A stretch of 64,000 bases of DNA from contig JAJDWB010000013.1 of NCBI GenBank assembly GCA_022825855.1, forward strand, positions 62,001 to 126,000, read 5' to 3'. The notes under the pieces were generated by a model. The model saw only the letters and a program-made list of their open reading frames with translations. It ran no database searches and was not told the origin of the DNA. The position numbers and the translations under genes are program-made. Source of the DNA: Dehalococcoidia bacterium (GTDB taxonomy: Bacteria; Chloroflexota; Dehalococcoidia; Bin125). Every line of letters starts with the position of its first letter. Within the stretch, counting starts at the first letter, position 1. Below, piece by piece: positions 4,592 through 29,386 of this stretch.

Positions 4592-4893
4592 TCGCGCCGG
4601 ACTCTGCGGATTGGGCTAAACTTAGAACGAATAATCGCTGTAGAGAGGCTGCGATCATGTCGTTCCCGGCGCACAACAGATCGTCAAACACGGCCCTCAC
4701 TTGGCTGACCGCCGCCTTCCATAGCCAACCATTCTCAACCACGTTCAACCACCCCGCTGTCGCGAAACCCAGCGTTTCATGCGGCGAACGCCCCGTTTTT
4801 CCTGCCACGCCCTGGCAGAAAAAAATTCTGCCAACCACCCAACCACCTCGCCTATCATCGGCGCACACCTCGTAACGGGCTGGAGGCCGACGC
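4592..4893. other. 302-base intergenic region, relatively AT-rich
   Basis: No convincing gene. It contains an AT-richer patch, a short perfect hairpin (separate entry), repeated CAACCAC words, and a ribosome-binding GGAGG at 4882-4886 serving the SDR gene. A 72-codon frame at 4657-4875 has no ribosome-binding site and amino-acid usage unlike its neighbours. The segment probably holds the 3' end of the SRPBCC-like transcript and the promoter of the SDR/crotonase pair. Confidence 0.5.
4813..4833. terminator. Perfect 8-bp hairpin with A5 loop
   Basis: TGGCAGAA and TTCTGCCA arms pair perfectly around AAAAA. It lies between the SRPBCC-like gene and the SDR gene, with a TTTTT run just upstream. 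It could be a terminator for either direction or an operator; with no U-tract after the + strand stem, the terminator reading is weak. Confidence 0.35.
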
Positions 4894-26433: not shown

Positions 26434-27054
26434 TCACCGGAGCGAGGATTCGCGGTCGATCCAGGTTTGCTCCAGCGCCGCCTTGCGTTCGGTCCAGGGC
26501 GGTTCGACGGCCCGGCGCTGGCGGGCCAGCTCGGCGAGCAGGACGGCGGCGGCGACGGAGACGTTGAGGGACTGGGCGAATCCGAGCATGGGCACGACTA
26601 TTGCGCCGTCGGCGAGGGCGGTCATCTCGACCGAGCAGCCGGCGTGCTCGTTGCCGAGGACGATGGCGGCGGGTCCGGTGAAGTCGATACCGAGGTAGTC
26701 CTGCGCGTCGTCGGTGAGCTGGGTGGCGTAGACCTTGATGCCCTCGGAGTGGAGGGCGGCGACGCAGGCCTCGGCGGAGTCGAAGCGGTCGATCTGGAGC
26801 CATTTCTGGACCTGGGCAGCGACGCCGCCGGAGATTTCGGGGAAGACCTGGTTGGTGTAGACGAGGGCTACGCGGCCGACGCCGAAGGCGTCGCAGCTTC
26901 TAAGGATGGCCGAGGCGTTGTGTTGGTCGTGGACATTCTCGATCACGACGACGACATCATCGTGGCGGCGTTCGAGGACGCGGCGCATCCTGGCGAGTCG
27001 GCGTTCGGTGATCGGCCGCTGCGGCTGTTCGGCGGGATCGGACGAGTTACTCAA
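26434..27054 (-). CDS. trmH: TrmH-family tRNA guanosine-2'-O-methyltransferase
   Basis: A 206-residue SpoU enzyme. The N-terminal basic segment (RRLARMRRVLERR) is typical of TrmH, which methylates G18 of tRNA. Motif 1 is ENVHDQHNASAILRSCDAFG, motif 2 LGNEHAGCS, and motif 3 VVPMLGFAQSLNVSVAAAVLL. The frame begins with TTG at 27054, preceded by AAGGA; an internal ATG at 26988 is the alternative. The gene may start a unit running on into the DUF35 and thiolase genes, with a 61-base gap to the next start. The repeat array lies 150-230 bases upstream. Confidence 0.88.
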   Translation of the reverse strand: MSNSSDPAEQPQRPITERRLARMRRVLERRHDDVVVVIENVHDQHNASAILRSCDAFGVGRVALVYTNQVFPEISGGVAAQVQKWLQIDRFDSAEACVAALHSEGIKVYATQLTDDAQDYLGIDFTGPAAIVLGNEHAGCSVEMTALADGAIVVPMLGFAQSLNVSVAAAVLLAELARQRRAVEPPWTERKAALEQTWIDRESSLR

Positions 27055-27203
27055 CCGGCGGGTCCTTTCGGGGTCTTGGCGGGCTTTCTTTCCTGGGCGG
27101 AGAAATGGGCGATTTCCAGCGTATTGCTGAGGATGGGGAAACGGGGGGGATCAATTTGGACTAGTTTCGTCATGGTTTTTCTGCGCTCTGCTGATTGACG
27201 AAT

Positions 27204-27283
27204 GTCAGATTTGGTCAGATTTTGTTCGAATTTGGGTGAGTCCGGGTGATTGTGGGTGGCTGAGGGTGACCCTGGGTGGGTCT
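27204..27283. repeat. Eight-unit tandem repeat with exact 10-bp period
   Basis: Eight consecutive decamers start at 27204, 27214, 27224, 27234, 27244, 27254, 27264 and 27274. The first two are GTCAGATTTG and GTCAGATTTT, the third is GTTCGAATTT, and the last five all begin GGGTG (GGGTGAGTCC, GGGTGATTGT, GGGTGGCTGA, GGGTGACCCT, GGGTGGGTCT). On the minus strand this reads as units ending in CACCC or in TCTGAC. A 10-base period is one helical turn and not a multiple of three, which points to a DNA-level rather than a protein-level repeat. Confidence 0.75.
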
Positions 27284-27465
27284 CGCTGAGTGTTGTTGTG
27301 TGGTGTGCGGGATTGGCATTTGGGACATGGCTTGCGGCTTTCGGGCGGCTTGTTGGCGTGGGGAACGTCATTGTATATGCACGGATGTGCTATGGGAGGG
27401 GGTTCGTTGTCTGGGTGACAGACGGGGGAGTGGTCTGTCTGCGCTGCCGACCATCACCCCCGTGT

Positions 27466-27484
27466 CCCCTGTTCAAGCCAGGGG
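27466..27484. terminator. CCCCTG/CAGGGG hairpin
   Basis: CCCCTG (27466-27471) pairs with CAGGGG (27479-27484) around a seven-base loop, about 50 bases beyond the reductase stop. It may help end the reductase transcript, though no U-tract follows. Confidence 0.35.
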
Positions 27485-27505
27485 CAGGCAAGGACGGGGC
27501 AGGCT

Positions 27506-27520
27506 TCTCCCTCGGGGAGA
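27506..27520. terminator. TCTCCC/GGGAGA hairpin just after the reductase stop
   Basis: TCTCCC pairs with GGGAGA around TCG, 12 bases beyond the stop of the nitrite/sulfite reductase on its strand. The CCCTCTCCC..GGGAGAGGG type of word is also common as a dispersed intergenic repeat. No U-tract follows. Confidence 0.4.
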
Positions 27521-27532
27521 GGGGACCGGAGG

Positions 27533-29311
27533 CTAGACGGCGCACTCGCCTTCGCCGCGTTGGAGGATGTAGATGTCCTGGCGGTCCCAGTCGATGAACA
27601 TGGGGAGGGTGTCGGCGGAGAACTCGGGCGGGAGGGTGAGGTCGTTGAGGGTCTCCTGGATGGGGTTGAGGCCGGCGCGGTCGACCCAGGCGCTGAAGAG
27701 TTCCTGATCGTCTTCGCGGTTGGCGTGGTAGAGGTCGATCACGCGCTCGACGGCGTCGGGCACGCGCTTGGCCGGGATGCGGACCTTGGGCACGAGCTGT
27801 CCGAGGCGCATTTCCTCGGTGCGGTAGGTGCCGCCGATGAACATGTGGTAGGCGGGAATCTGGCGGTTGCCGACCTTGATGGCGGCGCCGTGGAAGCCGA
27901 TGTCGGCGATGTGGTGCTGACCGCAACTGTTGGGGCATCCGCTCATGTGGATGCGCATCTTGCGGGTCAGCGGATCGTCGATGGCCATCTCGCGCACCCG
28001 CTCCTGGACGGCGCGGTTGAGACCCATCGAGGAGGTAATGCCCAGCTTGCAACTGTCGGTGCCGGGGCAGGAGACAACGTCCTCGATCTCCTGGGCGTCG
28101 GGCGCGCCCATGCCGAGGGCGTCGAGTTCCCGCCACACCGCGTAGACGGCGTCGTTCGGGATCCAACGCAGGACGACGTTTTGCTGCGGCGTGGTGCGGG
28201 CGCGTTCGCGTCCGTACCTGCGCAAAATCTCGGCCAGACCGCGGAACTGTTCGGGTGTGAGGTCGCCCTGATCGATCGACGCTTCAACGGCCGAGTAGCC
28301 CTCCTGGACCTGGGCGCGGACGTTGGCGGCGAGGAAGCGTTCGAAGCGCGCGGCATCGCCGTTGGGGGACGGAAGCTCGGCGCTCACAGCTCGCTCGTCG
28401 GAGTCTTCGTCGTCGATGTAGAGCAGTTCTTCGAGCGGCGGCGTTTCGCTCGCCCAGCCCTTTTGCAGCTCTTCGTCGACCATCTCGCGGAAGGCGTCTT
28501 CGCCGACGCGGTGGACGAGGAACTTGAGGCGGGCCTTGAGGATGTTCTTGCGCAGCTCGTCGGCGGCGTTGAAGATGCGGATCACGGCCTCGGAGAGGGT
28601 GAGGAACTCCGACATCGGCACGAACTCGGTCAGAGTGACGGCTTCCTTGGGCATGGTCGAGAGTCCGCCGCCGACCATGACGCGGAATCCGCGCACTTCC
28701 TCGCCGTCGATCACGCGGACCTGGGAGAAGAAGGCGAGGTCGTGGATCGCGGCGATGGCGGAGTCGGCCTCGCGGCCGGTGAAGTAGACCTTGAACTTGC
28801 GCGGCAGGAGCTGGGTGATTGAGTTGCGGACCCAGTAGCGGACGAATGCGCCGGCGTAGGGGGTGGGGTCGAAGACTTCATCGTCGGAGATACCGGCCCA
28901 GGGGTCGGCGGTGACGTTGCGGACGGTGTTGCCGCAGGCCTCGCGGGAGGAGAGTCCGACCTTGCCGAGCACGCGGAGCATGTCGGGCATCTGGTCGAGC
29001 GGGACGAAGTGGACCTGGATGTTCTGGCGGGTGGTGATGTGACCCTTGCGCAGGGGCGCGAACGTCTCGCAGATCTCGGCGAGGCCGTCGAGTTGGTCGG
29101 AGGTGACGCCGCCCATGGGCAGCTTGATCCGGTTCATGTGGACGTCGGGCTGGCGCTGACCGTAGACGCCCTGACGCAGTCGGTAGAGCATGAACTCGAC
29201 TTCCTCGCGCTGCTGCTCGCGGAAGGCGGTGGCTTCGGTCTCGAAGTCGTCGAGTTCGTCGTCCCAGATGGGGATCACGACTCCGGGGGTGTCGGTTCTG
29301 GTCTCGGACAT
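27533..29311 (-). CDS. Ferredoxin-dependent nitrite/sulfite reductase
   Basis: A 592-residue siroheme/4Fe-4S reductase with the two-fold repeated layout of the family (ferrodoxin-like half domains and two siroheme-binding halves). Cys415, Cys421, Cys459 and Cys463 form the C-x5-C...C-x3-C cluster that binds the 4Fe-4S and siroheme. Substrate-side basic residues are likely in TTRQNIQVHF and RTTPQQNVVLRW. ATG 29311 is chosen because GGAG lies nine bases upstream, over an in-frame TTG at 29326. No nitrate reductase or siroheme genes are next to it, so nitrite versus sulfite cannot be decided. Confidence 0.93.
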   Translation of the reverse strand: MSETRTDTPGVVIPIWDDELDDFETEATAFREQQREEVEFMLYRLRQGVYGQRQPDVHMNRIKLPMGGVTSDQLDGLAEICETFAPLRKGHITTRQNIQVHFVPLDQMPDMLRVLGKVGLSSREACGNTVRNVTADPWAGISDDEVFDPTPYAGAFVRYWVRNSITQLLPRKFKVYFTGREADSAIAAIHDLAFFSQVRVIDGEEVRGFRVMVGGGLSTMPKEAVTLTEFVPMSEFLTLSEAVIRIFNAADELRKNILKARLKFLVHRVGEDAFREMVDEELQKGWASETPPLEELLYIDDEDSDERAVSAELPSPNGDAARFERFLAANVRAQVQEGYSAVEASIDQGDLTPEQFRGLAEILRRYGRERARTTPQQNVVLRWIPNDAVYAVWRELDALGMGAPDAQEIEDVVSCPGTDSCKLGITSSMGLNRAVQERVREMAIDDPLTRKMRIHMSGCPNSCGQHHIADIGFHGAAIKVGNRQIPAYHMFIGGTYRTEEMRLGQLVPKVRIPAKRVPDAVERVIDLYHANREDDQELFSAWVDRAGLNPIQETLNDLTLPPEFSADTLPMFIDWDRQDIYILQRGEGECAV

Positions 29312-29386
29312 ACCGTAGTACTCCAACTAAGTTTGTCGTGTTTTCAGTCTATCAGCGCGGGATGCGCGTCTCGGGCCGCATGTGAG

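Follow-up and report, generated by a model that had tools for sequence, protein, structure and literature searches.

The array of direct repeats between the genes for a nitrite/sulfite reductase (nirA) and an RNA methyltransferase (trmH) in the window (the whole 64,000-nucleotide stretch of Dehalococcoidia bacterium DNA that was analysed) is, judging by its dispersed relatives, one copy of a genus-wide family of promoter-plus-leader elements of uncultured Chloroflexota. Across the family the repeat unit is exchanged at a constant period of 10 nt, stop codons are avoided in one frame, and the deduced peptide is not conserved. Sequence comparison points to a possible regulatory role of apparently translated, peptide-indifferent repeats.

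Period-10 array in the window

The eight decamers described in the initial annotation (GTCAGATTTG, GTCAGATTTT, GTTCGAATTT, GGGTGAGTCC, GGGTGATTGT, GGGTGGCTGA, GGGTGACCCT, and GGGTGGGTCT), their exact 10-bp period and their coordinates were confirmed base for base, as was the intergenic position between nirA and trmH; with about ten units, the array is two units longer than had been listed. The sense strand is the minus strand of the window, and reads AGACCCACCC AGGGTCACCC TCAGCCACCC ACAATCACCC GGACTCACCC AAATTCGAAC AAAATCTGAC CAAATCTGAC, of which AAATTCGAAC AAAATCTGAC CAAATCTGAC are the closing three units. The lag-10 self-match score was 31 over positions 27204-27306 of the 478-bp gap, above all 2000 dinucleotide shuffles of the gap (maximum 13 at lag 10, none reaching 31), and in 500 shuffles every lag from 5 to 20 stayed below 31. 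The other lags from 4 to 20 scored at most 10 in the real gap sequence, except lag 20, a harmonic of 10, which scored 14. A scan of the whole window at six lags (7, 8, 10, 11, 13, and 14; threshold 12) revealed a sole other run of at least 12, at lag 10 (score 13, positions 4714-4752). Tandem Repeats Finder also detected the array, weakly (scores 36-38). Gathering-level Rfam matches in the window were five tRNAs only, the array copy being unmatched.

The array sits downstream of its putative promoter, in the predicted transcribed leader of the minus strand, and not upstream of that promoter. Features of the locus are collected in Table 1; the leader ORF of this copy lacks a good ribosome site.

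Table 1. Coordinates of the period-10 element and its neighbours in the window.
Feature	Coordinates	Strand	Basis or remarks
Nitrite/sulfite reductase gene (nirA), upstream	27533..29326	-	PF01077 and PF03460
Upstream conserved element GTCACCCAGACAAC (GTYGCCnnnGACAC type)	27406..27419	-	About 30 bp from operator; alignment A1
Palindromic operator GCACATCCGTGC (GnAC-n4-GTnC, LexA-box-like)	27379..27390	-	Genome pattern count and likeness to lexA upstream region
-10 hexamer TACAAT	27370..27375	-	Conserved in 39-row promoter alignment A1
Short leader ORF, 37 codons	27215..27328 (ATG 27328-27326, TGA 27217-27215)	-	Spans most of array
Period-10 array	27204..27306	-	About 10 units, sense strand A/C-rich; lag-10 score and about 29 dispersed genome copies
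Hairpin-module relic	27110..27137	-	Orthologue alignments; in relatives the module stands behind the CGAAC/CCTGAA-type arrays of this locus
SpoU/TrmH-type RNA methyltransferase gene, downstream	26434..27054 (start TTG 27054-27052)	-	PF00588, E 5.1e-32

At the trmH locus four relatives (L073, L074, L075, and L080, the same loci as L188, L191, L203, and L182) have CGAAC/CCTGAA units, and the window copy has TCTGAC units, one remaining TTCGAAC unit, and a decayed hairpin. Other relatives (e.g., L069) lack the element, and there trmH starts immediately after the nirA stop. Downstream of CGAAC/CCTGAA-type arrays (L182, L188, L191, L193, L211, L213, L231, and others; alignment A2) come a hairpin (CGATCTCCAG-n7-CTGGAGATCG), a run of T able to pair with a run of A farther on, and a single additional CCTGAAA unit. 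Beside the 3' end of nirA, positions 27457-27532 hold a separate dispersed repeat, a palindrome of the CCCTCTCCCCGAGGGAGA type that is partially matched at dozens of places in the genome, and similar repeats occupy the same gap in relatives.

Element architecture and repeat units

In the aligned copies, a GTYGCCnnnGACAC-like block is followed by about 30 bp, a GnAC-n4-GTnC palindrome, 3 bases, and TACAAT; then come about 40 nt, a ribosome site such as CCAGGAGC, ATG, and the array. ATG or GTG was found 28-56 nt past the -10 hexamer in 80 of the 84 elements, and a purine-rich stretch precedes the start codon in 75 of the 84; ATG is missing at the expected place in 6 of 78 arrays. Relative to the -10 hexamer, 58 of 78 arrays fall into four adjacent phases, a preference confounded by common descent.

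The decamer consensus is AAAYCYGACC, and the best lag is 10 in 81/84 elements. Other units, found at other loci or in other species, are AATCTGGACA, AATCCGGACA, AAATCCAGAC/AAAATCGGAC, AATCGAACAn with AACCTGAAAA, and CCAACCAnnn, all with period 10; the unit sequence varies between loci and species and the period is constant. Lengths change by 10 nt between copies (L015, L031) and between orthologues, and autocorrelation is higher at 41 than at 40, indicating occasional 11-bp steps. A frequent array ending in other copies is AAAATCNGAC NGGATCTGAC CAAATCTGAC.

The set of 84 elements omits L021, where the array lies within a long coding frame; R1 (promoter model, see below) matches encoding about 100 residues or more (L174, L183, L184, L190, L202, L204, L219, L220, L228, L229, and L230); L224 and L225, which have neither an array nor a clear gene; and the duplicates L195, L197, and L203 together with identical sequences. 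At L021, a pair of TCTGAC decamers is found inside the long open frame and is not intergenic.

Distribution of the family

Arrays with this period recur across the genome and in the majority of the genus genomes. When the own genome (2.8 Mb, 22 contigs) was searched with the array as query, 41 stretches matched, some of them weakly. The 20-mer CAAATCTGACCAAATCTGAC, allowing up to 3 mismatches, gave 41 matches against 0 in the reversed control, and these merge into 29 aligned array copies; the genome contains about 29 arrays of the window's unit, plus arrays with other units. Arrays with this architecture are present in 9 of the 15 genus genomes, and the sequence-only promoter model R1 matches 10 of the 15; the genome G004 has only two R1 matches, L174 and L184, both of which are protein-coding and lack an array. 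With stricter filters, R1 matched 7 of the 148 genomes of a class sample, all 7 in this genus, and the promoter search found the architecture in no other genus of that sample. Exact TCTGAC-type arrays occur in 4 of 61 genomes searched (the own genome included), all in the genus. The relatives with named records are metagenome assemblies of Chloroflexota/Dehalococcoidia.

Among the 70 promoter-model loci viewed, without selection of rows, 55 have a lag-10 score of at least 10; most promoters in the training set of R1 bear arrays, and that set includes some of the 70 loci. Orthologous copies in different species could be assembled into fifteen groups, which argues that the family is old and that many copies were inherited in place. 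A literature search of open-licence PubMed Central papers yielded no description of this element family. No DNA similar to the element was found in phage and plasmid collections, and a phage or plasmid origin was rejected; in 2.9 million viral contigs one exact pattern matched five times, singly and never in an array.

Operator and putative SOS control

The exact operator pattern GNACNNNNGTNCNNNTANAAT occurs at 24 places in the genome and at none in the reversed control. The lexA gene was found in all 15 genus genomes, and in 14 of the 15 G[AT]AC-n4-GTTC is present 108-197 nt ahead of its start codon, usually followed by CCGCACACGTGC. Operators of the elements (GAACGTGCGTGC, GCACATCCGTGC, GAACATCAGTCC, and others) have the same shape as this lexA footprint: they conform to GnAC-n4-GTnC, mostly GAAC-n4-GTGC, i.e., one base off the lexA box, and the lexA site of the own genome, GAACATCAGTAC, is one base from the GAACATCAGTCC of two promoters. 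The recA upstream region contains a poor match only. The evidence supports putative LexA control of the element promoters without amounting to proof.

Where GAAC-n4-GTTC ahead of lexA is followed by CCGCACACGTGC (L134, L248-L261), this second palindrome resembles the trmH-locus operators of relatives. The same promoter also fronts several families of 100-130-residue proteins (L145, L149, L158, L184, L202, L204, L219, and L228-L230) that share a conserved YVrxxAxxxL-like region and have strongly acidic C-termini; five of these proteins were tested and had no significant Pfam or family match, only weak PHROG ones.

Reading frame and selection

Frames were counted in the 72 of the 84 elements that have a lag-10 score of at least 10 and an ATG 28-56 nt past the -10 hexamer. 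From the ATG to 30 nt short of the array end, the ATG frame contains 2 stops in 2049 codons, against 54 in 2026 and 51 in 1998 codons in the other two frames (105/4024 together), and it is open in 70/72 elements, against 32/72 and 41/72. P values of these tests are optimistic, because paralogues within a genome share ancestry; the openness holds for one element per orthologue group (n = 51), for the own genome G000 alone (n = 26), for the other genomes alone (n = 46), and in each unit class separately, and the antisense control showed no stop depletion.

The amino-acid sequence behaves differently. Orthologues mismatch at codon positions 1, 2, and 3 with frequencies of 0.235, 0.215, and 0.206 (chi-square P 0.52; totals over 13 orthologue pairs, each standing for one group in which framing of a pair was possible); the signature of a conserved small protein, fewer substitutions at positions 1 and 2 than at 3, was not found in these 13 pairs, and without codon-position bias the amino-acid sequence is therefore not conserved, which excludes a conserved peptide. 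Leader ORFs also stop at differing places, their lengths ranging from 24 to more than 100 codons. The array appears to be translated, with its peptide sequence apparently free. The earlier statement that a 10-bp period cannot encode a peptide repeat was not supported, as a stop-free decamer gives one and the same 10-residue repeat whichever of the three frames is read, and here the frame is kept open.

The phases of the decamer differ in conservation. Orthologues disagree at the core C, G, A, C, C in 80 of 546 cells (0.147) and at the remaining five phases in 129 of 531 (0.243; P 8e-5 vs. the core), which suggests that nucleotides at fixed decamer positions are constrained. The array looks functional, in line with the suggestion of a small repeat array with another role. 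The proposed bend element fared worse: in orthologues, the A positions show some of the highest mismatch frequencies (0.23-0.26) and the C/G/A core the lowest (0.12-0.17), and a DNA bend was rejected as the main role. Also rejected as the purpose of the array were three TGA codons, one per frame, as only the TCTGAC unit supplies them and the TCTGGAC, TCCGGAC, and CGAAC units have none.

Orientation relative to genes

Among 51 unambiguous cases, assigned by a crude rule of ORF length and GC3 rather than by a gene caller and with orthologues not collapsed, both neighbours are co-oriented with the element in 20, the downstream gene is convergent in 17, the upstream gene is divergent in 10, and both neighbours are opposed in 4. 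In tandem gaps the element is co-oriented in 20 cases and opposed in 4 (P 0.0015); an earlier run on G000 only gave 9:0, and the two runs disagree on some loci (e.g., L038 and L024). The bias in tandem gaps suggests that orientation relative to genes matters, but a co-oriented downstream gene is not required.

Possible function of the leader

The anatomy of the element is well supported; as for its mechanism, we infer, tentatively and with appreciable doubt, a leader of the SOS type in which the array, unstructured, rich in C and poor in G, would serve as a loading tract for Rho whenever no ribosomes cover it. LexA would repress the promoter, so that the element would be made under DNA damage; the array in the mRNA would form a rut-like Rho-loading tract with a pyrimidine-C (YC) step every 10 nt, which ribosomes on the leader ORF would cover. 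When translation fails, Rho would load and terminate transcription, making the element self-limiting, and before co-oriented genes, such as trmH here, the element may attenuate read-through. Control of read-through cannot be its general role, since the next gene is convergent in 17/51 cases.

This translation-gated Rho leader is favoured because Rho binds C-rich, G-poor, unstructured, ribosome-free RNA and gating short ORFs are known (PMC6407284, PMC7815308). A C-rich, G-poor, unstructured tract of about 70-80 nt, as described for rut sites, was found: 40-150 nt past the -10 hexamer the content of C is 0.40 and that of G 0.16 (56 elements), and the predicted folding is -0.156 kcal/mol per nt, against -0.394 in 80 window controls, a weakness explained by base composition, which alone predicts the same (z -0.23). 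The spacing does not fit. Chains of at least five YC steps have spacing 10 in 51/84 elements and spacings of 7-9 or 11-15 in 0-8/84, i.e., they run at period 10 with 8 nt between dimers, and not at the 11-15 that corresponds to the published rut descriptors, YC dimers 9-13 nt apart (PMC9160355); cytosines every 11-13 nt are also given for rut (PMC6407284). The main weakness of the Rho reading is this period outside the published 11-15 together with the conserved G and A of the decamer core, which Rho does not need and which count against it, as do the missing clear ribosome site of the window copy and the 6/78 arrays lacking ATG. The Rho gene is present in the genome, which says little, since Rho is nearly universal.

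The leading rival, though unlikely, places the function in DNA: the decamers would be head-to-tail sites for a small HTH filament protein, similar to BldC, that blocks or times transcription from the promoter of the element. It leads because the units (AAATCTGACC, AAATCCGGAC, AAAATCGGAC) closely resemble the BldC optimum CAATTCGGACAATTCGGACA given in PMC5859096; moreover, the sequence-specific core goes beyond YC, the orientation of the array is fixed relative to the promoter, the occasional 11-bp steps would suit the helix, and a small HTH_17 protein occurs across the genus. However, the spacing of BldC sites is 9 bp (PMC5859096), not 10, and 9-bp repeats of the AATTxxxxC type were not found, the best lag being 10 in 81/84 elements. 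The units differ by species, yet the copies of the HTH_17 protein that were compared hardly vary; the protein is also encoded in array-free genomes and has no significant sequence match to any solved structure, and a DNA filament gives no reason for the open frame. The protein itself (L242 and orthologues) has 72 residues and is almost invariant in the genus copies read.

Somewhat less probable is a role of the array in RNA as a multivalent tract for another RNA-binding protein or a base-pairing partner, which the SOS-induced transcript would titrate. Multiple copies, each with its own promoter, a weakly folding single-strand tract, and a sequence-specific 10-nt core whose unit identity changes by species would agree with titration, but the candidate partner is still hypothetical, the window copy has no Rfam gathering-level match, and the open frame is left unexplained.

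That the peptides are the product, as fast-evolving, hydrophilic, disordered SOS-induced peptides, is improbable. The ribosome site, ATG, and open frame would agree with such a product, and frameshifts would be tolerated, as stop-free decamers give the same repeat in any frame; nevertheless, the orthologues show no codon-position bias (P 0.52), the ORFs stop at differing places (24 to more than 100 codons), and coding explains neither the 10-nt period nor the conserved nucleotide core. Quite improbable is a selfish or neutral dispersed repeat, a slippage-prone minisatellite without a cellular role: the many copies, the 10-nt length changes between copies and orthologues, and the restriction to one genus in the genomes searched would suit it, but orthologous copies are kept between species with conserved core positions, the period is kept as the unit changes, and stop codons are avoided.

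Comparison with known systems

Three described systems share traits with the element. First, TAACTGA repeats of marine Beggiatoaceae (PMC4679880) are likewise dispersed intergenic direct-repeat arrays, gene-oriented and near start codons, with unit-step length changes and a suggested post-transcriptional role, their function being unproven; however, as described there, they are fixed-sequence heptamers, mostly upstream of the start codon and without a ribosome site, whereas here a decamer of changing sequence lies downstream of the start codon, in an ORF behind its own promoter. Second, Rho termination gated by an upstream ORF at mdtU-mdtJI in E. coli (PMC7815308) involves a short leader ORF of 34 codons (the modes here are 34 and 37) and C-rich, G-poor, unstructured RNA, the general description of Rho sites. 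The account of mdtU in that paper, in the part available, gives a conserved C-terminus and mentions no periodic array, whereas here the peptide is unconserved and there are dozens of copies with an SOS-type operator. Third, BldC sites of Streptomyces (PMC5859096) are variable numbers of head-to-tail, very similar direct repeats, described as having a 9-bp period and being bound at promoters; the arrays discussed here have a 10-bp period, lie downstream of the promoter, and are apparently transcribed and translated.

We consider it possible, with less than even confidence, that the family represents a new class of bacterial regulatory elements, i.e., dozens of SOS-controlled, peptide-indifferent translated leaders with a strictly 10-nt-phased mRNA array, in which a partner would read phase and a short core. 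The unit has been replaceable at one locus (CGAAC/CCTGAA in four relatives, TCTGAC here) with the period kept, which argues that such a partner would read phase and core and not a fixed word. The 84 elements from 9 species form a natural data set in which period, unit sequence, and frame openness evolve separately, and with them it can be tested directly what is recognised by a machinery that steps along RNA or DNA 10 nucleotides at a time. If that machinery is Rho, the array would be a loading site of unusual regularity, optimised in nature and controlled by translation; any other reader would be a new one for direct repeats, linked to an SOS-type promoter of uncultured Chloroflexota.
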